From a virus: a stretch of DNA of 55,214 nucleotides. The notes under the pieces were generated by a model. That model was given only the letters and a program-made list of their open reading frames with translations, was not told where the DNA came from and made no database searches. The stretch is taken from IMG/VR virus record IMGVR_UViG_3300040960_000562, positions 1 to 55,214 of that record; one strand, 5' to 3'. Made by a program: the position numbers and the translations under genes. Below are positions 40,849-52,834 of the stretch, in pieces; the stretch's first letter is position 1; every line of letters starts with the position of its first letter.

Positions 40849-40877
40849 ATCATACATCATTATCTATAAGGAGTCAA
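40849..40877 (-). promoter_or_regulatory. Sigma70-type promoter for the glycosyltransferase gene
   Basis: TTGACT at 40877-40872 and TATGAT at 40854-40849 with exactly 17 bp between, on the minus strand. Predicted start about 17 nt before ATG 40825. The -35 box overlaps the stop codon of the AbrB-like gene. Confidence 0.7.
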
Positions 40878-42654: not shown

Positions 42655-42714
42655 AGTATAAGGGGTCAGAGGGGGGTCAGGATGCCAGGCAGTGACGGTT
42701 TACCCACTGTCCCT
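42655..42714 (-). promoter_or_regulatory. Dyad-type promoter for gene at 42632
   Basis: -10 box TATACT at 42660-42655. Dyad AGGGACA-N10-CGTCACT at 42714-42691, ending 30 bp upstream of the -10. A weak member of the family: the proximal arm is the most divergent. Confidence 0.5.
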
Positions 42715-42889
42715 TAGAGGTGTCACCACTGAACCAGAGCATCTTAAGGATGGCACGACGCGACACACCAGTGTGGCGGTATTCGGTCAGGGGGGAGGAG
42801 AACCAACGGACGCGGGCGGTTCCCGTGATAGGGTTCAGGCGCAGAGTCCAGACGCTTTGGGAGTCGTTGCAGTTGATGGGGTAACGCAT
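42677..42889 (-). CDS. KTSC-like small protein
   Basis: This 70-residue protein reads MRYPINCNDSQSVWTLRLNP, TGTARVRWFSSPLTEYRHTG, VSRRAILKMLWFSGDTSKGQ and ends WVNRHCLAS. The V.F.SS...EY..V.R..I..ML....SKG.WVN order resembles the KTSC domain found at the end of some RNA- or DNA-acting enzymes and as free small proteins. By-eye assignment. Promoter of the dyad family at 42913-42973. Confidence 0.72.
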   Translation of the reverse strand: MRYPINCNDSQSVWTLRLNPITGTARVRWFSSPLTEYRHTGVSRRAILKMLWFSGDTSKGQWVNRHCLAS

Positions 42890-42912
42890 CGGGGTCCGTT
42901 GTTGTTGAGAGT

Positions 42913-42973
42913 ATTCTACAGGGTCGCCGCGCTCAGTCGCGGTCGGAGATGTGCCAGCGTCCCCACTGTCCCT
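42913..42973 (-). promoter_or_regulatory. Dyad-type promoter for gene at 42889
   Basis: -10 box TAGAAT at 42918-42913. Dyad AGGGACA-N10-TGGCACA at 42973-42950, ending 31 bp upstream of the -10. The dyad lies inside the end of the upstream coding region. Confidence 0.65.
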
Positions 42974-43160
42974 GGGGGCGGGTTGCTTCCCACTTGCTGA
43001 ACCATGCCTGCTGGGGGTTCTCAGGTTCAGGGGTCAGGATCTCAGTAGAACCAGCAATCTCAGACTGAGAGCGGATCGCTTCGAAGCGGCGTTGCTGCTG
43101 GTTCACGAATTCGGTGTAGTCTGCCAAGATGAGGGGCAGGTCTGCTTTGGTTTTGTTCAT
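42933..43160 (-). CDS. Small hypothetical protein
   Basis: This 75-residue protein reads MNKTKADLPLILADYTEFVN, then QQQRRFEAIRSQSEIAGSTE and a Trp-rich end (FSKWEATRPQGQWGRWHISD). No domain known. ATG 43160 is only 6 nt from the -10 box TATAAT, so the message may be almost leaderless. Dyad promoter at 43167-43226. Confidence 0.75.
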   Translation of the reverse strand: MNKTKADLPLILADYTEFVNQQQRRFEAIRSQSEIAGSTEILTPEPENPQQAWFSKWEATRPQGQWGRWHISDRD

Positions 43161-43166
43161 GCTGTA

Positions 43167-43226
43167 ATTATAGGCACGGGGTCCGCTGCTTTGGGGGGTT
43201 TGGTGGACACCCTGCCAACTGGTCGG
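43167..43226 (-). promoter_or_regulatory. Dyad-type promoter for gene at 43160
   Basis: -10 box TATAAT at 43172-43167 within CCCCGTGCCTATAAT. Dyad CCGACCA-N10-TGTCCAC at 43226-43203, ending 30 bp upstream of the -10. Confidence 0.65.
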
Positions 43227-43245
43227 GCAGCCGCTTCGCGGTATA

Positions 43246-43267
43246 AAGAAAGGGGCACGAATGCCCC
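43246..43267 (-). terminator. Rho-independent terminator with TTCG tetraloop
   Basis: Minus-strand GGGGCA-TTCG-TGCCCC stem-loop followed by TTTCTTT, 8 nt after the stop of the 115-residue gene. A clear intrinsic terminator. Confidence 0.85.
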
Positions 43268-43274
43268 CTATTTG

Positions 43275-43622
43275 TTATGCGAACATAAAACCATTGGTGA
43301 AGTCATACTCATTGTAGACAGGGGAAGTTCCTGCCTGTCCAATGAACTTGTGCACGAACCAATTGAAGTTCTTTTGGAATACACATTCACCCTTGATTCC
43401 ATGCTCCGAAAGAATAGCATTCAGGCGGGACTTGGTGGTCACAGAATGATAACCACCGTCGAAGATTTGAACGAAGTCATCACCAACGGTGGCAATGTGG
43501 TTGCCGAACAGATACACTTTCGACTCATTAGTTTCAGGGTCAAAAGTAACCGAAGTGTTATCTTTCTGCCAGTTCTGATTGTTAGAAATGGCAGCGTTCA
43601 TTTCACGTTCGATCTTACGCAT
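43275..43622 (-). CDS. Conserved cyanophage small protein
   Basis: This 115-residue protein reads MRKIEREMNAAISNNQNWQK, DNTSVTFDPETNESKVYLFG, NHIATVGDDFVQIFDGGYHS, TTKSRLNAILSEHGIKGECV, FQKNFNWFVHKF. I recognise this MRKIE..MN.AI.....W..GNT pattern with the TTKSRLNA(L/I)L core as widely conserved in marine T4-like phages and some other cyanophages, function unknown. Codon use is less GC-rich than its neighbours. Ends in a strong terminator. Confidence 0.88.
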   Translation of the reverse strand: MRKIEREMNAAISNNQNWQKDNTSVTFDPETNESKVYLFGNHIATVGDDFVQIFDGGYHSVTTKSRLNAILSEHGIKGECVFQKNFNWFVHKFIGQAGTSPVYNEYDFTNGFMFA

Positions 43623-43650
43623 GAGAAGTGAAGTTGTTTGACTTGAGATA

Positions 43651-43708
43651 ACAATACAGGATCTGGGGGACTTGTGTCGGTTTGGTGGACAGTCCCCCGA
43701 CTGTCACA
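43651..43708 (-). promoter_or_regulatory. Dyad-type promoter for gene at 43622
   Basis: -10-like TATTGT at 43656-43651, then TATCTCAAGTCAAACA in the leader. Dyad TGTGACA-N10-TGTCCAC at 43708-43685, ending 28 bp upstream; the inner arms also pair (GTC/GAC around GGGG). Confidence 0.65.
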
Positions 43709-43894
43709 TCAGAACAGGAGATCTGCGATCTGCTCCATAATGCTGCCATGGTCTGCGATGTGGACCCCATCATGGCGGATCTCAGCATACCCAAATTCCT
43801 CTGCCAGGTCATACATGATGTCGTAGGCACGGTCCAGGTCCAGGACGGACTCGGACTCATAAGGGGCAGAGGGAACCAGGATTTCGTAACGCAT
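43709..43894 (-). CDS. Small acidic hypothetical protein
   Basis: This 61-residue protein starts at ATG 43894 (MRYEILVPSAPYESESVLDL), continues DRAYDIMYDLAEEFGYAEIR and ends SIMEQIADLLF. It starts MRY like the genes at 41450 and 42889, with near-identical bases around the start. The upstream ATG at 43975 lies in the promoter and dyad, so it was rejected. Function unknown. Confidence 0.75.
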   Translation of the reverse strand: MRYEILVPSAPYESESVLDLDRAYDIMYDLAEEFGYAEIRHDGVHIADHGSIMEQIADLLF

Positions 43895-43916
43895 TGGGTT
43901 TGTTTGAACTTCAGTC

Positions 43917-43976
43917 ATTATAGGCACGGGGTCGGACGGTTTTGGGGCAATGGTGGACACTGCCCAGGGTGTCACA
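43917..43976 (-). promoter_or_regulatory. Dyad-type promoter for gene at 43894
   Basis: -10 box TATAAT at 43922-43917 within the same CCCCGTGCCTATAAT 15-mer as at 43167. Dyad TGTGACA-N10-TGTCCAC at 43976-43953, ending 30 bp upstream. Confidence 0.72.
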
Positions 43977-44166
43977 CCTTACCTTGGACCCATTCCCACT
44001 TGGTGATCTGAACCTCAGCGGGAACCTGACGACGCATGTCATGACCGCGCTGCATGGCGACGGCGAACTCTTGAGACTCCATGTAGGGTCCGACGTGATC
44101 GACCTTGACGGTCCGACCAGTGAAGGTGGTGTAGGTACGGCGGATGTAGTAGTTGGTTTCTTTCAT
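43972..44166 (-). CDS. Small hypothetical protein
   Basis: This 64-residue basic protein starts at ATG 44166 (MKETNYYIRRTYTTFTGRTV), continues KVDHVGPYMESQEFAVAMQR and ends AEVQITKWEWVQGKV. Beta-rich start, helical middle. No domain recognised. Its stop overlaps the dyad that serves the next gene. Confidence 0.72.
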   Translation of the reverse strand: MKETNYYIRRTYTTFTGRTVKVDHVGPYMESQEFAVAMQRGHDMRRQVPAEVQITKWEWVQGKV

Positions 44167-44237
44167 GCTTTTAGTATTGCACACCCTGGCGGTTCCCGTA
44201 GTTCACGGTGATACCAAACGGGAAACTCATTCATCAT
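44163..44237 (-). CDS. Possible 24-codon upstream peptide
   Basis: Short frame from ATG 44237 (MMNEFPVWYHRELREPPGCA) to a TGA overlapping the ATG of the next gene as ATGA. The coupling-style overlap is suggestive, but such a short frame can arise by chance. Confidence 0.3.
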   Translation of the reverse strand: MMNEFPVWYHRELREPPGCAILKA

Positions 44238-44275
44238 CCGTGCTTATGGGTCACGGGCGACTGATATCACCCATT

Positions 44276-44293
44276 TGATACGATATCGTATCA
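44276..44293. promoter_or_regulatory. Perfect 18-bp palindrome
   Basis: TGATACGATATCGTATCA, fully self-complementary without a spacer, in the 193-bp gap between the genes ending at 44360 and starting at 44166. Looks like a binding site for a dimeric protein. The rest of this gap shows no stable gene apart from the doubtful 24-codon frame. Confidence 0.5.
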
Positions 44294-44359
44294 GCAAAAA
44301 TATAACACTATGAATCCGTATCGGGCGGCTGCCCTGAGTATAAAGAACTCACGGAGAGT

Positions 44360-44548
44360 TTAGTACTTATAAGTGCTCAAGTTACGGGCAGGAACATGAT
44401 ACCCATCGTCGGGTTTGTTGGTATCATAAACCCACAGCAATTCGTTCTCTTGTGCCTTATACTTTTTGAACCCAAACATCGGGACCAAACGAACAACTAA
44501 CTCTCCCCAGTAGTAGTTAGTTTCGTAGTCGAAGATCTCAGGAAACAT
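44360..44548 (-). CDS. Small hypothetical protein
   Basis: This 62-residue protein starts at ATG 44548 (MFPEIFDYETNYYWGELVVR), continues LVPMFGFKKYKAQENELLWV and ends YHVPARNLSTYKY. Aromatic-rich, beta-like. I chose ATG 44548 because it follows the dyad promoter and shared CTCAAGTTCAAA leader; the earlier ATG at 44632 would read through that promoter. Function unknown. Confidence 0.72.
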   Translation of the reverse strand: MFPEIFDYETNYYWGELVVRLVPMFGFKKYKAQENELLWVYDTNKPDDGYHVPARNLSTYKY

Positions 44549-44571
44549 GAAACTTTTTTGAACTTGAGATA

Positions 44572-44631
44572 ACAATACCCCCAAACGGAACGAACCGCAA
44601 GGGGGTATGTGACACTTATCGAACTGGCACA
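44572..44631 (-). promoter_or_regulatory. Dyad-type promoter for gene at 44548
   Basis: -10-like TATTGT at 44577-44572 with TATCTCAAGTTCAAA following. Dyad TGTGCCA-N10-TGTCACA at 44631-44608, ending 30 bp upstream and starting directly after the TAA of the upstream gene. Confidence 0.72.
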
Positions 44632-44742
44632 TTACCAGTTGATATCATGCTCTTTGATGCGACACTGGAATTCTTCACCAGGTTCTAAGTCTAGAACCTC
44701 ACGCCAATTTACATCTTCTGGATGTAAATCATCATAACACAT
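44632..44742 (-). CDS. 36-residue acidic mini-protein
   Basis: Frame from ATG 44742 (MCYDDLHPEDVNWREVLDLE) ending FQCRIKEHDINW. Acidic and compact. Support comes from the TATAAC -10 box 11 nt upstream and from the stop lying exactly at the edge of the next dyad. No homologue recalled. Confidence 0.55.
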   Translation of the reverse strand: MCYDDLHPEDVNWREVLDLEPGEEFQCRIKEHDINW

Positions 44743-44862
44743 AATGTCTAGTGTTATAGTAACTAGGCGCTTGTTATGTGTAAGCATGTGTCTAGATGTG
44801 CGTATGTACGTATAATCTAGTGTGCATATGTGTGTAATCTAGATGTGTATATCTAGTACGCA
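44743..44862. repeat. Non-coding stretch with TCTAG-TGTG repeats
   Basis: About 120 bp with four degenerate copies of a TCTAG(A)TGTGxxTATGT unit and further ATCTAG sequences. No gene seen. Contains the TATAAC -10 box (44758-44753) of the 36-residue gene. Confidence 0.5.
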
Positions 44863-45027
44863 TTATGCATAATGTTGATACGCAAGCGTGTTATAATCTT
44901 GTGTATCTCGTGCATAATCCTCGTCGAGATCTTGTGCATCTAGTTGAGCATAATGCTCGTAGAGTGCATCCTCGTCGAGATTATAATCTTGTGCGAAAGT
45001 ATAGTCGAGATCGTAGTCGTCGTACAT
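44863..45027 (-). CDS. Asp/Tyr-rich small protein
   Basis: This 54-residue protein starts at ATG 45027 (MYDDYDLDYTFAQDYNLDED), continues ALYEHYAQLDAQDLDEDYAR and ends YNTLAYQHYA. More than a third of residues are Asp, Glu or Tyr, giving a low-complexity, very acidic protein, possibly a DNA mimic (inference from composition only). The coding DNA shares a CTCGACGAG element with its own leader. A TGCTACAAT promoter lies at 45060-45068, and a 14-bp palindrome CATTATGCATAATG spans the stop (44861-44874). Confidence 0.68.
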   Translation of the reverse strand: MYDDYDLDYTFAQDYNLDEDALYEHYAQLDAQDLDEDYARDTQDYNTLAYQHYA

Positions 45028-45116
45028 AATTCTCGTCGAGATCTGATGAACGCTTGTATATTGTAGCATATATCTAGTCGAGATACAACCTGTCTAGGTA
45101 TAAGTCTCGACGAGAT
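44919..45116. repeat. Repeated CTCGACGAG palindromic element
   Basis: Full copies at 44920-44930, 44971-44981, 45031-45041 and 45105-45115, with degenerate copies near 45003 and 45077. Two full copies are in the coding region (encoding LDED), one covers the ribosome site of that gene, and one is further upstream. Confidence 0.55.
45060..45068 (-). promoter_or_regulatory. Extended -10 promoter
   Basis: TGCTACAAT on the minus strand, 33 nt upstream of ATG 45027. Confidence 0.55.
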
Positions 45117-45126
45117 TCATAACCAT

Positions 45127-45134
45127 TATTTATA
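45127..45134 (-). promoter_or_regulatory. T4-type late promoter core
   Basis: Exact TATAAATA on the minus strand, 100 nt upstream of ATG 45027, the nearest gene. Confidence 0.5.
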
Positions 45135-45249
45135 AGTCTCTGTGAAAATGTGTGTGGGTTCTGTGACTTTTCGCCGCCCTGTGACTTGACAGACTGCGCG
45201 TCTTATGATACGCTCACTTAACTTGCATAAGGACAGAGGGTTTCAGAGG

Positions 45250-45305
45250 GGGTTTATAAGGTTTTAGAGAGCATCAGACACAAGGGTTTATAAGGATTTA
45301 GAGAG
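45250..45305. repeat. 22-bp direct repeat pair
   Basis: Copies at 45250-45271 and 45284-45305 differ at one base (GGGTTTATAAGG-T/A-TTTAGAGAG). A shortened third TTAGAGAG follows. The repeat period is 34 bp. Confidence 0.7.
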
Positions 45306-45397
45306 TATTAGAGAGCATAAAACAATACGAATTCTTATCATTATCCTGTCTTATTATGAATACTTATTAAGACTAATAAAACATTAACTTATATTTA

Positions 45398-45413
45398 AAA
45401 AGGTATTTTTAAT
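45398..45413 (-). terminator. Second hairpin of a tandem terminator
   Basis: Minus-strand AGTATT-AAA-AATACC hairpin followed by TTTTTAAAT, immediately after the stronger terminator. Confidence 0.5.
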
Positions 45414-45416
45414 ACT

Positions 45417-45437
45417 AAAAAACCCCATTTAAGGGGT
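45417..45437 (-). terminator. Rho-independent terminator
   Basis: Minus-strand ACCCC-TTAAAT-GGGGT hairpin with six T residues, 29 nt after the stop of the capsid-targeted protein gene. Ends the transcript from the higher-coordinate genes. Confidence 0.8.
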
Positions 45438-45465
45438 AAATCAGTTAATTTTAGGGTATAAAGAA

Positions 45466-45789
45466 CTATGGTAAGTCTCTTGCCCTTGTACCTCCATGTA
45501 AGATACCTAACCTCTCCATTGTCTTTACTTTTTTCTCTAATGACTGCTGTCTATCAATAGTATCAATACCATAGGTAGAATACTTAAATGGTATCTGATT
45601 AGTCTTAGATGTAGGTACTATTTGAGCAGTTGGTCCTAATCCTGTCTTAGGGTTAATCAGAAACCTTTGGGGTGCTGGATTAGATTCTCCACCCTTAGTC
45701 TTTAGAGGTGGCATTATTCTAAAAGGTGCAAGACTCTTTATACTATTTGCTGCTTCTGCTTCTACTATAAACTCTTGAAATGTCTTCAC
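45466..45789 (-). CDS. Probable internal head protein with capsid-targeting sequence
   Basis: This 107-residue protein begins MKTFQEFIVEAEA. T4 internal proteins IPI, IPII and IPIII begin with the capsid-targeting sequence MKTYQEFIAEA, which directs them into the prohead core and is cut by gp21 after the Glu. Nine of the first eleven residues agree, and the predicted cut FIVE|A keeps the IxE rule. The mature part would be about 97 residues, basic at its end, with NPKTGLGPTAQIVPTSK and EKKVKTMERLGILHGGTRAR. The start is GTG at 45789, fixed by this motif. A late-promoter variant lies 25 nt upstream. Probably packaged and injected with DNA. Confidence 0.78.
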   Translation of the reverse strand: MKTFQEFIVEAEAANSIKSLAPFRIMPPLKTKGGESNPAPQRFLINPKTGLGPTAQIVPTSKTNQIPFKYSTYGIDTIDRQQSLEKKVKTMERLGILHGGTRARDLP

Positions 45790-45814
45790 CGTTCGATAGG
45801 GTTACTTCTCCTCA

Positions 45815-45822
45815 TATTTATT
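45815..45822 (-). promoter_or_regulatory. Late promoter variant for the capsid-targeted gene
   Basis: AATAAATA on the minus strand, one base off TATAAATA, 25 nt upstream of GTG 45789, with GAGGAGAAG in the leader. Late expression would fit an internal head protein. Confidence 0.5.
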
Positions 45823-46423
45823 TCGCATGATATTCCATACAAGTCCAAATGATATTCTTTTTTCCTTCCTTAATAGCAGTTGACTTATGTACCGTCTGCA
45901 TGTCACAAGGGAAACATAACATACTTCCCTTCTTTGGTTTAACCTTGAGTTTCTGATTCAAGAACAATGTATCACCACCAGTGAAGTCATCATTCAGATA
46001 CAAGATATAAGAAAACAATAGATGTGCATGGTCTGAACTATCAATATGCCAGTCATAATAGTCACTCTTATCATATGTTCGATAAGTGTAACTACATGAT
46101 GTTGTGTACAGATACTGTGCGTTCTTGAGTGTAAAATACCTCTTATTATTCAGTACATAATGGGCATGGATATCAGAGAATATCGAATGTAATGTTCTAT
46201 CCGCACACATCATATGATGGTCATACTTTGATACCTGTGATACGTTAATACATGAGTTATTTCTTACCTTTGATCTCTCAGTATTCTTTGTCAAATACTC
46301 ATCATGTAAAGATGACTGTTGTATCAGTGATAAGATAGTATTACAGGTTTCATTCGATACTACACTATCATACTCCCAAATGAATGGGGTGTGTTCATAC
46401 CAACTGTGTTTTTTGATAGTCAT
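45818..46423 (-). CDS. 2-oxoglutarate/Fe(II)-dependent oxygenase
   Basis: This 201-residue protein starts at ATG 46423 (MTIKKHSWYEHTPFIWEYDS). The double-stranded beta-helix metal site is HID at residues 126-128 (DYYDWHIDSSDHAHLLFSYI) and distal His179 in MQTVHKSTAIKEGKKNIIWT. KKGSMLCFPCDM supplies the strand before it, with a Lys where most relatives have the 2-oxoglutarate-binding Arg. The prolyl-hydroxylase-like layout suggests hydroxylation of a protein or nucleic acid; the substrate is unknown. Its start overlaps the previous oxygenase gene by 29 nt. Confidence 0.85.
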   Translation of the reverse strand: MTIKKHSWYEHTPFIWEYDSVVSNETCNTILSLIQQSSLHDEYLTKNTERSKVRNNSCINVSQVSKYDHHMMCADRTLHSIFSDIHAHYVLNNKRYFTLKNAQYLYTTSCSYTYRTYDKSDYYDWHIDSSDHAHLLFSYILYLNDDFTGGDTLFLNQKLKVKPKKGSMLCFPCDMQTVHKSTAIKEGKKNIIWTCMEYHAK

Positions 46424-47045
46424 TACCACAATAAACCCATCCAGTCACAATGTACTTATCATTCGAAATAGGAGTACATCCACGATGCAAATATGTCCAG
46501 GTTGCAGGGAAAATACATAACCTCCCCGCCTTTGGTTCTACCTTTACTCCATTTACAAACTCAGTATGCCCACCATCTTCTACATCATTCAGATACCAAA
46601 TATAAGTCAACATCCTTGGTCCTAACTCTTTCTTCACCATGAAATCATGATGCCAGTCATAATGCCCACCTTCACTCTTAATATACTTCTGTATCTGATA
46701 ACCAGTGTCCTTGACTATATCCTCAGACGTAAAATAATGCATCACTGGGTTGATACTTTTAATATGCTCAGTATAACAACGTAGGTTACTTGTCAGATGC
46801 TCAAAGAATGTAGTATCCTCTTCTCTCCACTCATCAATATAACTCTGCAACCATAAGTCATATGACTTCTTCATCTTCTCATCCTGGCGACGGTTATATC
46901 CTACGGTGCCAGGGCGACGACGTTCTGATGGTTCAGACTCAAACTTATCAATGACATGTCTACAAAACTCAGCACTCAAGTCATTATCCTTTAAGTAGAT
47001 AAAAGGATCACTTTTCATCATACTTATCGTTACGGGACTTGACAT
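46395..47045 (-). CDS. 2-oxoglutarate/Fe(II)-dependent oxygenase (second copy)
   Basis: This protein has up to 216 residues. The metal site is HHD at 132-134 (GGHYDWHHDFMVKKELGPRM) and distal His187 (FPATWTYLHRGCTPISNDKY). The GGHTEF strand and KAGRLCIFP complete the P4H-like barrel core. It differs strongly from its neighbour in sequence, so the pair is not a recent duplication. The start may be ATG 47045, or 47021/47018, because conserved sequence begins at DPFIYLKDNDLSAEFC. It overlaps the genes on both sides. Confidence 0.87.
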   Translation of the reverse strand: MSSPVTISMMKSDPFIYLKDNDLSAEFCRHVIDKFESEPSERRRPGTVGYNRRQDEKMKKSYDLWLQSYIDEWREEDTTFFEHLTSNLRCYTEHIKSINPVMHYFTSEDIVKDTGYQIQKYIKSEGGHYDWHHDFMVKKELGPRMLTYIWYLNDVEDGGHTEFVNGVKVEPKAGRLCIFPATWTYLHRGCTPISNDKYIVTGWVYCGNDYQKTQLV

Positions 47046-47256
47046 ACTTGAGTTGATGATAATACTCAGGGAAACATAATACCAACGTATGCGTCTTTTG
47101 ATGTATCGGGCAATGCTTTATATCTTCCTCATCCTTACATCTTACTCCTATCTCAATCGTAATATACTGGGAGTCCTTATAATACACCCATCCCTCTACA
47201 TTATGCTTTCCTTTGTTCCACTGAACATAGTCATCAACTTCAGGCGTATAAGGCAT
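47008..47256 (-). CDS. Conserved small protein beside the oxygenases
   Basis: This 82-residue protein reads MPYTPEVDDYVQWNKGKHNV, EGWVYYKDSQYITIEIGVRC, KDEEDIKHCPIHQKTHTLVL, CFPEYYHQLKYVKSR. An SH3-like small barrel is plausible (DYVxW..G..EGWVY......I.I...V). It contains a C-P-I-H and a Cys/His set that could bind metal. I know the type from cyanophages next to oxygenase genes, function unknown. Overlaps both neighbours. Confidence 0.8.
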   Translation of the reverse strand: MPYTPEVDDYVQWNKGKHNVEGWVYYKDSQYITIEIGVRCKDEEDIKHCPIHQKTHTLVLCFPEYYHQLKYVKSRNDKYDEK

Positions 47257-47554
47257 ATTCTAATGGGTTGAGTTTGAGTGGCATAGATGTGTAAGGAGTT
47301 GTAGAGTTAATATCTACTACATCTCCTACGGTTTTTGAGTTGATAGGGGAATGGAAACGTTTTGTTTTTGTATTGTAAAAGGCGTAGATAGTTTCAGTCG
47401 GAGCACCACCATTGTAGACAAACTTGCGATGACACAACAACCAAACAGCAACAATGTTGCTCTTGAAGGGTGATGCCTTGTACTCATATCCTTTAGGTGC
47501 CTGATGTGGTATCAGGGACAGCACGGAGTCGGTTAGGGTTTGTTCCTTCACCAA
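47240..47554 (-). CDS. Conserved small protein
   Basis: The conserved part runs from KGYEYKASPFKSNIVAVWLL to CHRKFVYNGGAPTETIYAFY, NTKTKRFHSPINSKTVGDVV and ending MPLKLNPLEYA. No ATG is available at the start. TTG 47554 or GTG 47551, with GAGGAA upstream, would overlap the previous gene by about 60 nt; GTG 47524 is an alternative. Length up to 104 residues. Recognised as a recurring cyanophage hypothetical. Confidence 0.72.
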   Translation of the reverse strand: MVKEQTLTDSVLSLIPHQAPKGYEYKASPFKSNIVAVWLLCHRKFVYNGGAPTETIYAFYNTKTKRFHSPINSKTVGDVVDINSTTPYTSMPLKLNPLEYALYA

Positions 47555-47672
47555 TCAGTTCCTCTAATAATGCTTTTGCCTGGTCTTTGTTCAGTTTGGT
47601 AGAGTTACCTGGGACAACTTCCCATCCAGTTGTCACAAACTCTTCGACACGATACAGTTTCTCTTCAGTCAT
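47493..47672 (-). CDS. Conserved 59-residue protein
   Basis: Frame from ATG 47672: MTEEKLYRVEEFVTTGWEVV, PGNSTKLNKDQAKALLEELI, GEGTNPNRLRAVPDTTSGT. I recognise the MTEEKLYRVEE..TTGWE..........T...C...L..L...G.NPNRLRAVPD pattern as one of the commonest small proteins of marine T4-like phages. Helical second half. Function unknown. Confidence 0.88.
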   Translation of the reverse strand: MTEEKLYRVEEFVTTGWEVVPGNSTKLNKDQAKALLEELIGEGTNPNRLRAVPDTTSGT

Positions 47673-47674
47673 TG

Positions 47675-47908
47675 TTATGTGGTAAATGTTTCTACAATGC
47701 CCGACTCTTCATCATTTGCTAACTGAAATGTGATAGCAGTCGTAACCTTTTCCATGATCAGGTTGTCGTATTTATCATCAGCATCATGGCGCCACTCAAG
47801 CAGAATATCATGGCACTCAACATCATTCTCAGCGATGACTGTTAATAAACCACCATACTCAGAGGTTGGAAATGGCACCCAGTAGTCTACCAGATAAAGA
47901 TACTTCAT
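47675..47908 (-). CDS. Conserved small protein
   Basis: This 77-residue protein starts at ATG 47908: MKYLYLVDYWVPFPTSEYGG, LLTVIAENDVECHDILLEWR and ending GIVETFTT. The ALAxxxESRIVExFTT-like end is typical. It starts just after the stop of the GTG-initiated gene upstream, with GAGGAGT as ribosome site. A conserved cyanophage hypothetical. Confidence 0.85.
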   Translation of the reverse strand: MKYLYLVDYWVPFPTSEYGGLLTVIAENDVECHDILLEWRHDADDKYDNLIMEKVTTAITFQLANDEESGIVETFTT

Positions 47909-47921
47909 TAGTGTGTGTAAG

Positions 47922-48101
47922 TTACTCCTCAACTTTACTATAGTGTTTGCTGTTTGTCAATAATGACAGTTGACGGTTGAGTTCGACTTGTACTCCAATC
48001 AGTTTGTTTCGCATGAAACTTTCATACTGGTTGCCCTGTAACAGTGACAGAATGTTATTGGTTTGCATAATCGCCAAATGCAACTTTGCCTCATGGTTCA
48101 C
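47922..48101 (-). CDS. Conserved 59-residue helical protein, GTG start
   Basis: Frame from GTG 48101, overlapping the previous stop as GTGA. It reads (M)NHEAKLHLAIMQTNNILSL, LQGNQYESFMRNKLIGVQVE, LNRQLSLLTNSKHYSKVEE. The NHEAKLHLAI.QTNNILSLL pattern is a known cyanophage short protein, all alpha. The GTG start is fixed by the coupling overlap and the conserved N-terminus. Confidence 0.82.
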   Translation of the reverse strand: MNHEAKLHLAIMQTNNILSLLQGNQYESFMRNKLIGVQVELNRQLSLLTNSKHYSKVEE

Positions 48102-48241
48102 AGAAACTCCTCCATCAAATAGTCTACAGTGATCTCCATCTTAGCAGCACTGTTCTCCAGAAACTCATCCATAAGTTCAGGAGCATCTTCTTGCATCACT
48201 GCTAAAGTCTGATACCACAGTTTAGTAGGAAGGGATGACAT
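48098..48241 (-). CDS. Conserved 47-residue protein
   Basis: Starts at ATG 48241: MSSLPTKLWYQTLAVMQEDA, PELMDEFLENSAAKMEITVD, YLMEEFL. The frame is open to GTG 48349, but conserved sequence begins at MSSLPTKLW and that start overlaps the upstream stop by only 20 nt. Helical and acidic. Function unknown. Confidence 0.82.
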   Translation of the reverse strand: MSSLPTKLWYQTLAVMQEDAPELMDEFLENSAAKMEITVDYLMEEFL

Positions 48242-48425
48242 CGTTTCGGAGTCCTGTTTCTGTTCGGTCAAGAGTTTGCCAAACTGAGTGGAGTCGTTCG
48301 TAGAGTGCTGCTGTTGATCCATACTCTTTTGCGATGAGGTTTTCGTCACGGTGTTGTAGCAACTGCAATGCAGATAGAATAACTCCTATCTCATGCACGT
48401 TTAAGTTGACATTTGCGTCAGTCAT
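48222..48425 (-). CDS. Conserved 67-residue helical protein
   Basis: Reads MTDANVNLNVHEIGVILSAL, QLLQHRDENLIAKEYGSTAA, LYERLHSVWQTLDRTETG. The HEIGVILSALQLL..(T/R)DENLIAKE(Y/F)GS pattern is a recurring cyanophage hypothetical. ATG 48425 has GGAGGAGA directly before it. Promoter TGGTATAAT about 23 nt upstream. Confidence 0.86.
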   Translation of the reverse strand: MTDANVNLNVHEIGVILSALQLLQHRDENLIAKEYGSTAALYERLHSVWQTLDRTETGLRNDVIPSY

Positions 48426-48447
48426 TCTCCTCCATAGGAACTACTCC

Positions 48448-48456
48448 ATTATACCA
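48448..48456 (-). promoter_or_regulatory. Extended -10 promoter
   Basis: TGGTATAAT on the minus strand, upstream of ATG 48425 and overlapping the stop of the preceding gene. Confidence 0.6.
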
Positions 48457-48649
48457 CATCTGCGAAGTTTGGCACCCACCACACTTGACATTCTTCACCA
48501 TCAAACCACTCACCAAACTCCTCAAAGACTGCACGACAGTTATCTTCTTCGTCCGCCTCAGCAAAACATTCACACAGTCGGAACATATCCTCACTGATAC
48601 TATCAATGAGTTCCATACGGTCGTCCATCGTCATTTCGGAGTTGTTCAT
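48449..48649 (-). CDS. Small acidic protein
   Basis: This 66-residue protein reads MNNSEMTMDDRMELIDSISE, DMFRLCECFAEADEEDNCRA, VFEEFGEWFDGEECQVWWVP. Very acidic with three Cys residues and a Trp-rich end. No family recognised. It starts 2 nt from the stop of the gene above. Confidence 0.75.
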   Translation of the reverse strand: MNNSEMTMDDRMELIDSISEDMFRLCECFAEADEEDNCRAVFEEFGEWFDGEECQVWWVPNFADVV

Positions 48650-48650
48650 G

Positions 48651-48791
48651 TCAGTAAGTCAGTGAAGAGGACAGTTTTTCGTGAATTGAAACTAAGTCAA
48701 AGACATGATGTTCTGACTCAGATAAGTCTTGCGACTCAAGAAGTTGCAGGAGAATCTGTATCTCCTTCTGCGAAAGTTCCAAGGTTTCCAT
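48651..48791 (-). CDS. 46-residue helical mini-protein
   Basis: Frame from ATG 48791, overlapping the upstream stop as ATGA: METLELSQKEIQILLQLLES, QDLSESEHHVFDLVSIHEKL. The LxxKEIxxLLxxLE pattern is common among small phage proteins. Function unknown. Confidence 0.75.
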   Translation of the reverse strand: METLELSQKEIQILLQLLESQDLSESEHHVFDLVSIHEKLSSSLTY

Positions 48792-49027
48792 CACTCAACG
48801 GGCATCAAACCCTCTAGCACTTCCTCATCATAGAGGTCAATAACCTCTTCCTTAATATCTTCTTCAGTACAGTCTTTGTATGCGTCCATCAACATATCAA
48901 AGCACATTTGACACAGACTGTCCATGTCCATACCGTCAATGATCATGTTAGCGTAGTTCTCTTTCAGTTGGAGAAGTTCGGAGTCGTTCATGATGTTAGG
49001 GTCAGTAGGAAAAGAAACGAAAGACAT
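48791..49027 (-). CDS. Conserved small acidic protein
   Basis: This 78-residue protein starts at ATG 49027, fixed by an ATGA overlap with the 43-residue gene. It reads MSFVSFPTDPNIMNDSELLQ, LKENYANMIIDGMDMDSLCQ and ends LYDEEVLEGLMPVE. The MNDSELLQLKENY core starting at codon 13 resembles other cyanophage proteins, so ATG 48991 is an alternative. Function unknown. Confidence 0.8.
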   Translation of the reverse strand: MSFVSFPTDPNIMNDSELLQLKENYANMIIDGMDMDSLCQMCFDMLMDAYKDCTEEDIKEEVIDLYDEEVLEGLMPVE

Positions 49028-49158
49028 CAGTAGTCGTAGTTACCGTTCAGATACTCATTCATGTCGAACTTTTTGTCAGAGTCTAAGTCCTGCATCTCAG
49101 GAATGTCAAAGATCTCACCAGGAGCGTCAGCGATCTCAGTGAAGAACTCATCAAACAT
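49027..49158 (-). CDS. Conserved 43-residue acidic protein
   Basis: Starts at ATG 49158: MFDEFFTEIADAPGEIFDIP, EMQDLDSDKKFDMNEYLNGN, YDY. The DIPE(M/L)Q.LDSD(K/R)KFD(M/L)N(E/D)YLNGNYDY pattern is a recognised cyanophage mini-protein. It is first in a coupled run of mini-genes and is controlled by a dyad-type promoter. Confidence 0.82.
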   Translation of the reverse strand: MFDEFFTEIADAPGEIFDIPEMQDLDSDKKFDMNEYLNGNYDY

Positions 49159-49183
49159 GGTTGTCTCCGTTGGTTACTTAAGT

Positions 49184-49242
49184 AGTATAGGGCGTCTGGA
49201 GCACCTTGGAAGCGGTACTGTGCCAGTTCCTCAACTGGTCTG
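49184..49242 (-). promoter_or_regulatory. Dyad-type promoter for gene at 49158
   Basis: CCCTATACT at 49192-49184. Dyad CAGACCA-N10-TGGCACA at 49242-49219; inner arms CCAGTT-GAGG-AACTGG are perfect. Spacing from TGGCACA to CCCTATACT is 26 bp. Confidence 0.75.
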
Positions 49243-50136
49243 GAACCGACTGTTCTGGAAGTTGGCGCGACTGAACGCCTCCCGCTGGACTAATTTGAAC
49301 ATGCCGAACTCATTGGCATAAACATAACCCTCAGCATCAATACGATCGAAACCTACATACGCAGCAGGTCCATTATTGCGACAAAGTGACAAACAGTCAT
49401 CCTTAATTGACTTGACAAGTTTCCACAAACGAATTAGGTTGCGGTCGCAGTCGCAGGCGATGGTCAGTGCCTCCTCGTCCAGTTCGGCACCCACTTTTAC
49501 GAAAGTGTTAAATACCTTCTTCATTTCGCGTGCTTTCTTATCACTCACGAACTCACAGGTTGTTGACATTTGCTTGGCAAACATCACAATGTCCATTACA
49601 TCATCAAACTTGTCAGAACCATATGCGATCCATGCCTGAGGTTTGACAAACTTACAGTGATGAGTATCAGTCAGAGTGAAGTCCAATGGGCGAGCAACTG
49701 CATTGCGAAGATCATCCTCAGCATCATAATATGTGTGTGGTGCGACAATGATAGTCTCACGAATCACACTGGGGAAGACATAGGAAATGGTGTTAGGTTG
49801 ATACTCATCGCTACCACCAACACCGATAAAGTCACCCTGCAAAATCCACGGAGAGCGTGGCAGATAGTCATAGCAAAGGTGAAGAATCTCTGCTACTGGA
49901 CCTTCATGGTTAGCATCAATATCCTCATGCGACTCATTAATTTTGATCTTTACTTTGTTGAATACACTCTTAGTTCCTACGAAAAAGTTACCAGTCGCAG
50001 GGTTGCGTCCCCACACAATAGCAGGAGCACCATCAATCTTCAGACTCAACTTACCGTCAGTGACAAACCAGTTCAGTGCCGAAAGGTCACCAGTCAGAAT
50101 AGAATCTTCGGGGTGTTCGATGTGAGTGTTTTGCAT
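49231..50136 (-). CDS. KxDG-motif protein, probable covalent nucleotidyltransferase
   Basis: This 301-residue protein reads MQNTHIEHPEDSILTGDLSA near the start and carries SLKIDGAPAIVWG (KIDG at 33-36), the pattern of the adenylated lysine in DNA/RNA ligases and capping enzymes. Near the C-terminus DAEGYVYANEFGMFKLVQRE (about 264-283) resembles ligase motifs IV (EGxV) and V (KxV). Other conserved-looking parts are ILQGDFIGVGGSDEYQPNTI and SVIRETIIVAPHTYY. I know the family as an uncharacterised one from marine phages (DUF6267-like). The ligase link is inference. ATG 50136 is coupled to the preceding gene by ATGA. Confidence 0.8.
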   Translation of the reverse strand: MQNTHIEHPEDSILTGDLSALNWFVTDGKLSLKIDGAPAIVWGRNPATGNFFVGTKSVFNKVKIKINESHEDIDANHEGPVAEILHLCYDYLPRSPWILQGDFIGVGGSDEYQPNTISYVFPSVIRETIIVAPHTYYDAEDDLRNAVARPLDFTLTDTHHCKFVKPQAWIAYGSDKFDDVMDIVMFAKQMSTTCEFVSDKKAREMKKVFNTFVKVGAELDEEALTIACDCDRNLIRLWKLVKSIKDDCLSLCRNNGPAAYVGFDRIDAEGYVYANEFGMFKLVQREAFSRANFQNSRFQTS

Positions 50137-50276
50137 CAGAATAACTCCAGTTGAGCAAACATTAGGTGGTCGTCACAACTATCAGAGTCGTGAAGGTCAA
50201 GCATATCAGTGTCAACATGCTTGACCAGTTTGCTGAAAAGAAAGTCAACAAACTCTCGGTTTTCTTGAGTAATCAT
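50136..50276 (-). CDS. 46-residue acidic mini-protein
   Basis: Frame from ATG 50276, joined to both neighbours by ATGA overlaps. It reads MITQENREFVDFLFSKLVKH, VDTDMLDLHDSDSCDDHLMF, AQLELF. Helical start, Asp/His-rich end. The VDTDMxDLHxxDDCDxH pattern could bind metal. Function unknown. Confidence 0.78.
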   Translation of the reverse strand: MITQENREFVDFLFSKLVKHVDTDMLDLHDSDSCDDHLMFAQLELF

Positions 50277-50434
50277 CACCAGCGGAGGTAAGTGTGGTCA
50301 GGATAGATGCCCATTTCTTCACAACGGCACTCATAAGCAATACGCTTGAGCAACTCCATGTCCATGTCTTCAATCTCATCCAGAATAGTGTGACGGATTT
50401 GAGCGGTTTGAGTGTCGTCAGAAACGAGTGCCAT
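50276..50434 (-). CDS. 52-residue mini-protein
   Basis: Frame from ATG 50434 preceded by AGGAGA. It reads MALVSDDTQTAQIRHTILDE, IEDMDMELLKRIAYECRCEE, MGIYPDHTYLRW. Acidic and helical with two Cys. First gene of a coupled set with the 46-residue and KxDG genes, so the three are probably co-translated. Dyad-type promoter at 50458-50517. Confidence 0.78.
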   Translation of the reverse strand: MALVSDDTQTAQIRHTILDEIEDMDMELLKRIAYECRCEEMGIYPDHTYLRW

Positions 50435-50457
50435 TGGTCTCCTGCGTTGATGAACTT

Positions 50458-50517
50458 AGTATAGGGCACTCCAGGCGCTGCTGAGTGCCGTTGTGTGCCA
50501 CTTCTCAGACTGGCACA
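50458..50517 (-). promoter_or_regulatory. Dyad-type promoter for the 50434 operon
   Basis: CCCTATACT at 50466-50458, leader AAGTTCATCAACGC, then AGGAGA. Dyad TGTGCCA-N10-TGGCACA at 50517-50494 (perfect 7-bp arms), spacing 27 bp to CCCTATACT. The dyad overlaps the stop of the upstream gene. Confidence 0.8.
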
Positions 50518-50756
50518 GACTGTTGGAAATACAAACCAGTGCGCTTCATCATATCAATCAAAGCACTCTGAATGTCTTCCATTTCTTCACGCTCATCATC
50601 TTCCATTTCTTCGACAAAGTAGAATACATCAAACTCATTAAAGTTCACACTACCATCAGACTTAATGGGAGCATAGAACAACTCACCCTCAGTGCAGATA
50701 GTATAAACACAACCGTGATTCTCAACAGTCAGGAACACACCAGTGAAGTTGGTCAT
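50505..50756 (-). CDS. Small acidic protein
   Basis: This 83-residue protein reads MTNFTGVFLTVENHGCVYTI, CTEGELFYAPIKSDGSVNFN, EFDVFYFVEEMEDDEREEME, ending in a helix and QQSVPV. A beta-rich first half and a very acidic helix. The type is familiar from cyanophages. Function unknown. No dyad upstream; a TACAAT overlaps the start codon. Confidence 0.8.
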   Translation of the reverse strand: MTNFTGVFLTVENHGCVYTICTEGELFYAPIKSDGSVNFNEFDVFYFVEEMEDDEREEMEDIQSALIDMMKRTGLYFQQSVPV

Positions 50757-50795
50757 TGTAGGAAATGCGGAGGTTTTGATGAGGGAAATGTGGAC

Positions 50796-51032
50796 TCAGC
50801 AGTAGACAGGAGAGTAGTCTTTGCCCTGGTACTCTTCCAGGTTAAAGTCAACAACCTCTGCACCGTTGGCAATATACTGACGAATGTCGTAGAGAGCGTC
50901 AGACTTAACACGGGTGGTGAAAGAAGTCATCTCAGTCTCTTCACCCTTGTGCCAGATGACACGCTTAACGAAACGCTTGCCGCTGCCCACGGGAAAGAAG
51001 TCAACGGTGGTGGCGGAGGTTTGGAGTTGCAT
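50796..51032 (-). CDS. Small hypothetical protein
   Basis: This 78-residue protein starts at ATG 51032 (MQLQTSATTVDFFPVGSGKR), continues FVKRVIWHKGEETEMTSFTT and ends VVDFNLEEYQGKDYSPVYC. The open frame further upstream runs through the promoter and is not coding. Beta-rich. Function unknown. Confidence 0.75.
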   Translation of the reverse strand: MQLQTSATTVDFFPVGSGKRFVKRVIWHKGEETEMTSFTTRVKSDALYDIRQYIANGAEVVDFNLEEYQGKDYSPVYC

Positions 51033-51056
51033 TGGGCGTCTTGCGTTGATGAACTT

Positions 51057-51115
51057 AGTATAGGGTAGAATGGGGCGTTCAGAACGACCCCTGTGCCACT
51101 TGCTCAAGCGGCACA
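51057..51115 (-). promoter_or_regulatory. Dyad-type promoter for gene at 51032
   Basis: CCCTATACT at 51065-51057 with the same AAGTTCATCAACGC leader as at 50434. Dyad TGTGCCG-N10-TGGCACA at 51115-51092 (inner CTT/AAG also pairs), spacing 26 bp. The dyad lies inside the end of the upstream coding region. Confidence 0.8.
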
Positions 51116-51291
51116 CGCTTGACCTCCAGGCGCTTCCAACCACGAATCTCACGGATACCATTGACCACCTGATTCACCACGTTGTTGTGCTGACGGTTCA
51201 GACCACGGATGCTCTTAGTAGCAGGGCGAGTGATGTAGAAGATGCTGGTGGTGTTGTCGCTGTTGTCGATGGAGACTTCGTAAGCGTTCAT
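51079..51291 (-). CDS. Small basic protein
   Basis: This 70-residue protein reads MNAYEVSIDNSDNTTSIFYI, TRPATKSIRGLNRQHNNVVN, QVVNGIREIRGWKRLEVKRV. Beta strands flank a helical centre; basic overall. No family recognised. Confidence 0.75.
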   Translation of the reverse strand: MNAYEVSIDNSDNTTSIFYITRPATKSIRGLNRQHNNVVNQVVNGIREIRGWKRLEVKRVPLEQVAQGSF

Positions 51292-51317
51292 CGGGTGGTT
51301 CCCTTGACTACCTTAGT

Positions 51318-51376
51318 AGTATAGGGCATCCAGAAGGCGCTACAAGGCGAGGTGTGCCACCTCTTTGACTGGCACA
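51318..51376 (-). promoter_or_regulatory. Dyad-type promoter for gene at 51291
   Basis: CCCTATACT at 51326-51318. Dyad TGTGCCA-N10-TGGCACA at 51376-51353 (perfect 7-bp arms), spacing 26 bp. The dyad lies in the 3' end of the Dam gene. Confidence 0.8.
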
Positions 51377-52212
51377 TAGTTTGTCACCAGAACCTCACTC
51401 ACGTCCAGCGTAGAGGTGCCTCTGCCTGCTGTATATTTTGCTTCCATCTCAATGATATTACATCCAACAAAGTTGCGCTCATAAAAACCATCGTGGATGT
51501 CTTTATTAGAGTACCCAAACTTACATCCAGAACCTGTAAGATAGTTTGCTAGTCTAACTTGGTCTTCCTCAGTAAAACCACCTTGATACAACACAACGCT
51601 GTCACGATACGGTGGGTCAGCATACAACCAGTCACCTTCTTGTGGTTGATGAGCAGCAAAGTCTCCAGTGGTGATAGTTGCTCGCTTCAGAAACTCTGCC
51701 ACAGTAAAGATCTTTTGACGGTCAAAGAACGCCTGCTTTTGTAGACATGTACCAGGAGGAGTTGAGTACCTACCATTACATTTAATGTATGCTTTCCACA
51801 TACCATTGAAGTTCACTTGTAGCATGAACATTAACAACGAAGACAGATAAACATCAGACTTACTCTCATGATCATGACAGTAAATCTCACGCAGTTCGTA
51901 ATAGTATTTCTTGCGTTCTTCAGGAGTCAGAGTCAACCACTTGCTCACACATTCCTGCCACCCATCAACAACATCATTGGTATGATTTGCCAGAGTAGAA
52001 TACAACAGAGTCAGTTCACCATTCCAGTCGTTGATAACAAACTCTTTCTTGGGATAATGTTCAAATACCCACAGAGAGTTAGTGAGACCACCAGCGAACA
52101 GATCGACAAAGCGAGTGAAGTTTTCTTGTGGAAAGAAGTGCGATTGATACTGCTGCATCATCCGCTGTTTAGAACCAGTCCACTTAAACAACGGTTGAAT
52201 CTTTGTCTTCAT
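51340..52212 (-). CDS. dam: DNA adenine methyltransferase, D12 class
   Basis: This 290-residue protein has all landmarks of Dam-type N6-adenine methyltransferases. PLFKWTGSKQRMM near residue 7 is motif X. FVDLFAGGLTNSLWVFEHYP (35-54) is the SAM-binding motif I, and VINDWNGELTLLYSTLAN is motif II. YADPPYRDSVVLYQGGFTEE has the catalytic DPPY at 199-202, followed by CKFGYSNKD. T4 and T2 encode a related enzyme that methylates GATC. Here it adjoins nuclease-like and second methylase genes, so it may protect phage DNA against the island's own nuclease or host enzymes. Promoter TGGTATAAT lies 22 nt upstream. Confidence 0.93.
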   Translation of the reverse strand: MKTKIQPLFKWTGSKQRMMQQYQSHFFPQENFTRFVDLFAGGLTNSLWVFEHYPKKEFVINDWNGELTLLYSTLANHTNDVVDGWQECVSKWLTLTPEERKKYYYELREIYCHDHESKSDVYLSSLLMFMLQVNFNGMWKAYIKCNGRYSTPPGTCLQKQAFFDRQKIFTVAEFLKRATITTGDFAAHQPQEGDWLYADPPYRDSVVLYQGGFTEEDQVRLANYLTGSGCKFGYSNKDIHDGFYERNFVGCNIIEMEAKYTAGRGTSTLDVSEVLVTNYVPVKEVAHLAL

Positions 52213-52233
52213 GTTTGCACCAAGAATTGATAG

Positions 52234-52252
52234 ATTATACCACGAATGGTAT
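52234..52252 (-). promoter_or_regulatory. Promoter overlapping a hairpin, upstream of Dam
   Basis: TGGTATAAT extended -10 with the perfect stem ATACCA-TTCG-TGGTAT (52252-52237) reaching into the TATAAT box on the minus strand. Confidence 0.55.
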
Positions 52253-52755
52253 CAGTTTGCAACCTCAACCAACAACTCTTTAGTGAGCATACTAAAGGGG
52301 AGAACATGAACATTCTCATGAATATCACCACGTTGCTGGGATTTCAACAACTTCTTGGTGAATAGTTTAGTACACTTATCAGTTTCTTTCTTACCTTCGG
52401 TGATGTAAAGTACGGTACGCTCACCATAGCAACTATCACGAAGTTTCTCCAAGTCGAAGAACACTTTCTCCTCAGTAGTGCCGCTCTTATCTCCACCCTT
52501 CAGTTCCAGGATGGCATCAAGTTCGGGGCAATATCCATCAGCAAGGAAATACTTAAACCCACATTCTGCATACTCTTCGGGTACATCGTGTTTGATAGTA
52601 CCAACGTAAGGAATACCAAGTTTCTCACATTCTTTCTTGGTTTTCACAAATGTGAAACCATTAGAGGTGAAGAACTCTCGTAACATTAACTCACGTTGTT
52701 GTCCAGAACGTGCAGCACCGTGAGCATCGGAGTTAGTTTGGTTCTCGTAAGTCAT
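52252..52755 (-). CDS. PD-(D/E)XK nuclease, restriction-enzyme-like
   Basis: This 167-residue protein has the core YFLADGYCPELDAILELKGG (residues 69-88), with Asp80, Glu84 and Lys86 as the likely PD-(D/E)XK triad. DKSGTTEEKVFFDLEKLRDS follows, a sequence I associate with small type II restriction enzymes (GTTEEK..FDLEK). The remaining sequence alternates beta and alpha as expected for that fold. Placed between Dam and the split methyltransferase, it is probably the endonuclease of a modification system or a free-standing phage nuclease. Cognate site unknown. Dyad-type promoter upstream. Confidence 0.8.
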   Translation of the reverse strand: MTYENQTNSDAHGAARSGQQRELMLREFFTSNGFTFVKTKKECEKLGIPYVGTIKHDVPEEYAECGFKYFLADGYCPELDAILELKGGDKSGTTEEKVFFDLEKLRDSCYGERTVLYITEGKKETDKCTKLFTKKLLKSQQRGDIHENVHVLPFSMLTKELLVEVAN

Positions 52756-52776
52756 TGTACTTTAGAATACTTTGTC

Positions 52777-52834
52777 ATTATAGCACCCACACCAAACAGT
52801 CTGGGGAAGGTGATCCAGTTCCCTAACTGTCCAT
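52777..52834 (-). promoter_or_regulatory. Dyad-type promoter for the nuclease gene
   Basis: TGCTATAAT with -10 box TATAAT at 52782-52777. Dyad ATGGACA-N10-TGGATCA at 52834-52811, ending 28 bp upstream; inner arms CAGTT-AGGG-AACTG pair perfectly. The dyad spans the stop of the upstream gene. Confidence 0.68.

Follow-up and report, generated by a model that had tools for sequence, protein, structure and literature searches.

The analysis concerns a 55-kb virus record (IMG/VR IMGVR_UViG_3300040960_000562, 55,214 nucleotides), hereafter the window, which is identified as a T4-like cyanophage by its portal, tail sheath, large terminase, head-closure and baseplate proteins. Upstream of eleven of its genes the minus strand carries 24-bp dyads, one of them degenerate (Table 1), in a region flanked by DNA-methylase-type genes (53.3-54.2 kb) and gp25/gp6; the corresponding place in S-PM2 (methylase to gp25/gp6) is occupied by a cluster of small variable genes. 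The gene starting at 43622 belongs to the Kyano_Gp96 family (Pfam PF23790, E=4.7e-46), and an Rfam search of the window returned no match. The structural-gene part has no dyads and is rich in late-type NATAAATA motifs, both kinds of motif being on the minus strand; these late-promoter-like motifs occur at 15 places from 120 to 47776, on the minus strand only and mostly in the structural-gene part. The interval 44740-45130 is AT-rich, with many palindromic CTCGTCGAGAT / TCTAGT copies and no convincing gene. Several spacers between a dyad and its -10 hexamer (43640-43680, 44572-44610, 50458-50494, 51057-51092) contain an extra G+C-rich inverted repeat, such as GGGGTCGTTCTGAACGCCCC in the promoter of the gene starting at 51032, and these repeats are possible terminators of upstream transcripts.

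Table 1. Dyads of the window with their -10 hexamers, the gap between the two (bp), the start of the gene served and the score under the 502-site matrix
Dyad	Position	Strand	-10	-10 position	Gap	Gene start	Score	Remark
AGGGACAGTGGGTAAACCGTCACT	42691..42714	-	TATACT	42655-42660	30	42632	13.4	within upstream coding region; weaker site
AGGGACAGTGGGGACGCTGGCACA	42950..42973	-	TAGAAT	42913-42918	31	42889	16.3	within upstream coding region
CCGACCAGTTGGCAGGGTGTCCAC	43203..43226	-	TATAAT	43167-43172	30	43160	-0.6	degenerate; marginal
TGTGACAGTCGGGGGACTGTCCAC	43685..43708	-	TATTGT	43651-43656	28	43622	13.6	Kyano_Gp96 family
TGTGACACCCTGGGCAGTGTCCAC	43953..43976	-	TATAAT	43917-43922	30	43894	9.4	
TGTGCCAGTTCGATAAGTGTCACA	44608..44631	-	TATTGT	44572-44577	30	44548	29.9	exact consensus
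CAGACCAGTTGAGGAACTGGCACA	49219..49242	-	TATACT	49184-49189	29	49158	23.0	
TGTGCCAGTCTGAGAAGTGGCACA	50494..50517	-	TATACT	50458-50463	30	50434	31.2	exact consensus
TGTGCCGCTTGAGCAAGTGGCACA	51092..51115	-	TATACT	51057-51062	29	51032	28.6	
TGTGCCAGTCAAAGAGGTGGCACA	51353..51376	-	TATACT	51318-51323	29	51291	28.1	
ATGGACAGTTAGGGAACTGGATCA	52811..52834	-	TATAAT	52777-52782	28	52755	14.3	

The consensus originally proposed for these sites, TGTG(C/A)CA-N10-TG(G/T)CACA, describes the sequences correctly but is too weak to single them out, given that TGTGMCA-N10-TGKCACA with up to three mismatches has 11 matches in the window against 10.5 expected, which is not significant. A matrix of 24 columns, derived from 502 sites of other viral contigs and none from the window, was scanned over all 55 kb. 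Ranked by matrix score together with a -10, the top ten distinct places are 44608, 50494, 51092, 51353, 49219, 42950, 52811, 43685, 42691 and 43953, with scores from 31 to 9, all on the minus strand and each with TAnnnT at 28-31 bp. The shuffled window has a mean maximum score of 12.4 and about two matches above 10; the only further place in the window scoring above 9 is 42193 (10.2), which has no -10. Ten of the eleven sites of the original prediction are recovered in this way, and its placing of the dyad end 28-31 bp before the -10 holds at all ten, as do its four identical CCCTATACT boxes with a spacing of 26-27 bp. The eleventh dyad, that of the gene starting at 43160, is degenerate though in register, reaching its low score only with the correct gap of 30, while other registers score from -29 to -51. 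The dyads at 42691 and 42950 are weaker as independent evidence, because both lie in coding sequence with a common GQW peptide. Overall, the window has ten firm sites and a single marginal one, that of the gene starting at 43160.

The architecture of these promoters was defined by scanning viral contigs for TGTGCCA-N10-TGGCACA followed by TATAMT, which yielded at least 120 matching stretches; among the matches listed the distance between the two elements is almost always 28-30, with 20-40 bp permitted. A second sample, gathered regardless of the -10, comprised 142 dyads in the same viral loci outside the TATAMT-pattern matches, and 127 of these have TAnnnT at 28-31 bp, as against mostly 12-20 in other four-base bins and 65 in the adjoining 32-35 bin. 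In the general layout the dyad is followed after 28-31 bp, most often 29, by TATAAT or TATACT, and an ATG lies 20-29 nt past the -10 in 105 of 148 sites, leaving a short leader. With the hexamer taken as -12 to -7 the dyad is centred at about -53, close to the 50 bp upstream claimed for it, which supports a promoter-linked site for a regulator that would be dimeric. The promoter-proximal half-site is the more conserved one (10.1 versus 7.7 bits in the 502-site matrix). The spacer logo of 165 sites shows no -35 hexamer signal; the original prediction was correct in this respect, but the activation that it deduced from the missing box has weak evidence in it, because many marine picocyanobacterial promoters, to our knowledge, do without one. 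The first genes downstream of the dyads fall into 79 unrelated clusters, mostly of small proteins without known function, the remaining families being Kyano_Gp96, DUF7249, helicase and anti-restriction proteins.

A survey of 24 named phages, allowing up to one mismatch, found the dyad in 13 of the 14 T4-like cyanophages, each of which has 1-11 copies (Syn9 4, S-PM2 6, S-RSM4 2, P-SSM2 11, P-SSM4 3, P-HM2 6, S-BM3 2, S-WAM2 1, S-SSM7 11, S-CRM01 11, P-TIM40 7, Syn33 1, S-ShM2 1, S-SM2 0), and in none of 10 other phages (T4, RB49, HTVC008M, S-TIM5, Ma-LMM01, P-SSP7, P60, Syn5, P-SS2 and S-CBS2), which include the T7-like and siphovirus cyanophages tested; the reversed pattern, used as control, occurred at one place in one phage. 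The dyad-bearing phages span Prochlorococcus hosts and both marine and freshwater Synechococcus hosts. Syn9 dyads lie at 44774, 47204, 48558, 51000, 52996, 127492 and 148742 of its genome. Dyads of this phage have TATTCT or TATAAT 28-29 bp downstream, and a blastn comparison of the promoter of the gene starting at 51291 located the dyad core also in Syn9 and the promoter half also in S-RSM4 and S-PM2. In non-cyanobacterial genome contigs matches are near chance level. One 188-kb contig titled Nonlabens xiamenensis (L127, GenBank NZ_RMVE01000006) resembles a T4-like cyanophage and has dyad promoters, and is likely to represent contamination or mislabelling.

It is highly probable, in our judgement, that the dyad is the operator of a dimeric regulator activating the -10-only early promoters of a single phage regulon. 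A dimeric transcription factor would bind the double-stranded DNA operator centred about 53 bp before transcription start, and the bound factor would recruit or stabilise host RNA polymerase at a promoter with a -10 and without a -35; the many small early genes of the hypervariable region (DNA methylase to gp25/gp6) would thereby form one regulon. The dimeric protein nature of the factor, its activating role and the early class of the regulon are separate inferences. Its position upstream of the -10 suggests that it is probably an activator rather than a repressor, whereas early timing is suggested by synteny with S-PM2 and by what Doron et al. reportedly found. A point against this proposal is the small number of strong copies in some T4-like cyanophages, with none in S-SM2 and one each in Syn33 and S-ShM2.

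A search among phage proteins for one that has a DNA-binding domain and follows the distribution of the dyad gave none. Seven core proteins are present in P-TIM40, Syn9 and S-CRM01 and missing from HTVC008M and S-TIM5; inspection by eye revealed no evident DNA-binding domain in these seven, one of which (157 aa) adjoins P-TIM40 dyads. DUF1825 (PF08855) tracks the dyad perfectly in the first 14 phages, a comparison that is confounded by phylogeny; it was rejected as the early regulator given that it adjoins gp59 as T4 gp33 does, and from this position it is presumably a late co-activator. The AbrB-like ORF at 40874 was also rejected, having only a sub-threshold MazE match.

Copies of the dyad also occur in host chromosomes, and we believe these to be the new part of the finding. 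Perfect dyads are rare, with 11 in 300 Cyanobiaceae genomes, and four of them are at one place, with the 16S rRNA about 400 bp downstream in the three whose locus includes it. This rRNA-operon region is common to nine related genomes, a clade that may be Ca. Synechococcus spongiarum; in this clade only, the dyad lies 32 bp before TACCTT and about 400 bp upstream of the 16S rRNA (L201-L203, L217-L223), and it ranks with the best conserved parts of the upstream region. At up to two mismatches from a fuller pattern the nine genomes contain 28 sites, against 0 for the reversed control, and 19 of these differ from the rRNA site by which, and not by the other sites, the genomes were chosen, some of the 19 being mutually orthologous. 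TAnnnT is found at 30-32 bp in 10 of 16 listed host sites, and TTGAC or TTGGC at +7 in several; a family-wide host search with the -10 exactly 29 bp downstream gave scattered matches only, the host spacing being 30-32. As the flanks of most sites are unrelated, the host dyads do not represent one transposon end. These observations, along with the lack of a phage-specific DNA-binding core protein in our searches, favour a refinement in which the site binds a host-encoded regulator borrowed by the phage, the same operator working in host chromosomes. We consider this quite possible while stopping short of calling it probable: the approximately 291 other Cyanobiaceae genomes are at background (16 sites versus about 30 for the control), the dyad is missing upstream of the rRNA genes in 30 members of the family, and it is not used by cyanophages outside the T4-like group, the T7-like ones among them.

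The genes near host dyads include those for type IIG and ISP restriction enzymes, HsdR, a GajB-like helicase (Gabija-like), STAND-type ATPases, an HNH endonuclease, an HTH/PIN toxin-antitoxin pair and a SocA antitoxin. The defence-linked dyads (L292, L294, L295, L299, L301, L303, L317) usually have a -10-like hexamer at 30-32 bp, and some defence neighbours are not the target, as in L299, where the dyad promoter faces the gene beside HsdR. Such neighbourhoods are consistent with an alternative refinement, in which the regulator is phage-encoded, possibly virion-delivered, and host defence copies exploit it so as to be switched on by infection. This accords with the distribution of the dyad, which tracks the lineage of the phage and not that of the host and is absent from other cyanophages, but the dyad at the rRNA operon of the same host clade fits a housekeeping factor better and the search for a phage protein produced no candidate; we hold it to be possible, if rather doubtful. 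With similar reserve, we suggest that the operator is common to phage and host, the one Cyanobiaceae clade having a chromosomal regulon with this dyad and a similar promoter geometry, either because the phage took over a host growth/defence regulator or because host defences are wired to the phage early regulator. With copies of the operator in host chromosomes, the question of which regulator binds it can be put to the test, and so can the choice between a virus that hijacks a regulator of its host and a host that senses the virus; on the second of these two readings, if true, infection would trigger the host defences wired in this way.

Two further host loci were observed. In one genome (G031; L326:9552-20000, L327:1-4400) an island of about 14 kb beside a tRNA-Ser, with an integrase and a Sak-like annealing protein, has a phage-type dyad promoter at each end directed inward, and may be a satellite or prophage remnant using the phage regulator. 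In Synechococcus lacustris a 60-aa ORF, HTH-like by eye and without a Pfam/PHROG match, is preceded by a perfect long palindrome (L136/L325:17453-17476) that surrounds TGTGCCA-N10-TGGCACA; TATAAT follows this at exactly 29 bp.

The remaining explanation, an RNA hairpin of the upstream gene (terminator or 3'-end stabiliser) as in RB49-type PeSL cassettes, is very improbable even though the dyad often overlaps the upstream stop codon and some arms could pair in RNA. Across the 502 sites the arms show no covariation or compensatory change (7.09 of 10 positions paired, versus 7.16 with shuffled partners), and pairing is avoided at inner positions 8/17 (z=-6.6), where G,G or C,C is preferred. No T-run follows the window dyads. 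Spacing is fixed relative to the -10, while among 367 related sites the upstream gene ends before the dyad in 144 and across it in 149, and in 74 the dyad is entirely within the upstream reading frame, so that all three arrangements originally described are seen. The upstream gene is divergent at 61 of the 502 site entries, and 42 have a -10 and ATG also on the opposite side of the same dyad, which then serves promoters on both sides. Because of the absence of covariation, the unpairable 8/17 positions, the conserved proximal half, the variable position at gene ends and the two-sided promoters, the dyad is a DNA site, as would suit the binding of a protein, rather than an RNA hairpin or terminator; its conserved role is not termination, as the original argument against a simple terminator had it.

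Among known systems, the closest is a novel regulatory element that Doron et al. 2016 (ISME J 10:1437) reportedly described as controlling the transcription of early genes in Syn9 and P-TIM40 and as conserved among T4-like cyanophages. Both phages carry the present dyad, and the Syn9 -10 lies at an equal distance; the dyad is thus probably the Doron early element, and the description of the regulon as undescribed was probably wrong. Unlike the present dyad, the reported element is not known to have host chromosomal copies or to occur in a freshwater phage. Among papers citing Doron et al. 2016, those consulted give no description of the early motif; they do confirm three temporal classes and the lack of motA/asiA (PMC5780444). 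For these ocean viruses, a very abundant group, the dyad offers an early-promoter definition that is precise and searchable, and it points to many new candidates for early genes.

In T4 MotA middle promoters an activator site likewise stands in for the -35 of a sigma-70 promoter, but the present site differs in sequence, in its 24-bp dyad form and in its position near -53. That it is no MotA box, as first stated, is supported by the 165-site spacer logo, which has neither a MotA box 11-13 bp before the -10 nor another conserved box near it, and by the lack of motA and asiA in cyanophages (PMC5780444, PMC2984593). Cyanobacterial NtcA (GTA-N8-TAC) and CRP-type (TGTGA-N6-TCACA) sites are also dyads upstream of -10-dependent promoters, and the outer TGTG resembles the CRP arm; however, the present dyad has N10 between 7-bp arms, with TGTG and CACA 16 bp apart, and is centred near -53 rather than about -41, and GTA-N8-TAC does not appear in the 502-site matrix. 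In RB49, few early promoters matched the search pattern used for the PeSL architecture. The 165-site logo of the present dyads lacks the -35 of the strong PeSL-type sigma-70 promoter (-35 and -10). The PeSL cassettes of RB49/phi1, reportedly described by Arbiol et al. 2010, share with the present system a repeated inverted repeat and an early promoter before small variable genes of T4-like phages, whereas the present repeat, a site on DNA, shows no RNA covariation, and its promoter has no -35.
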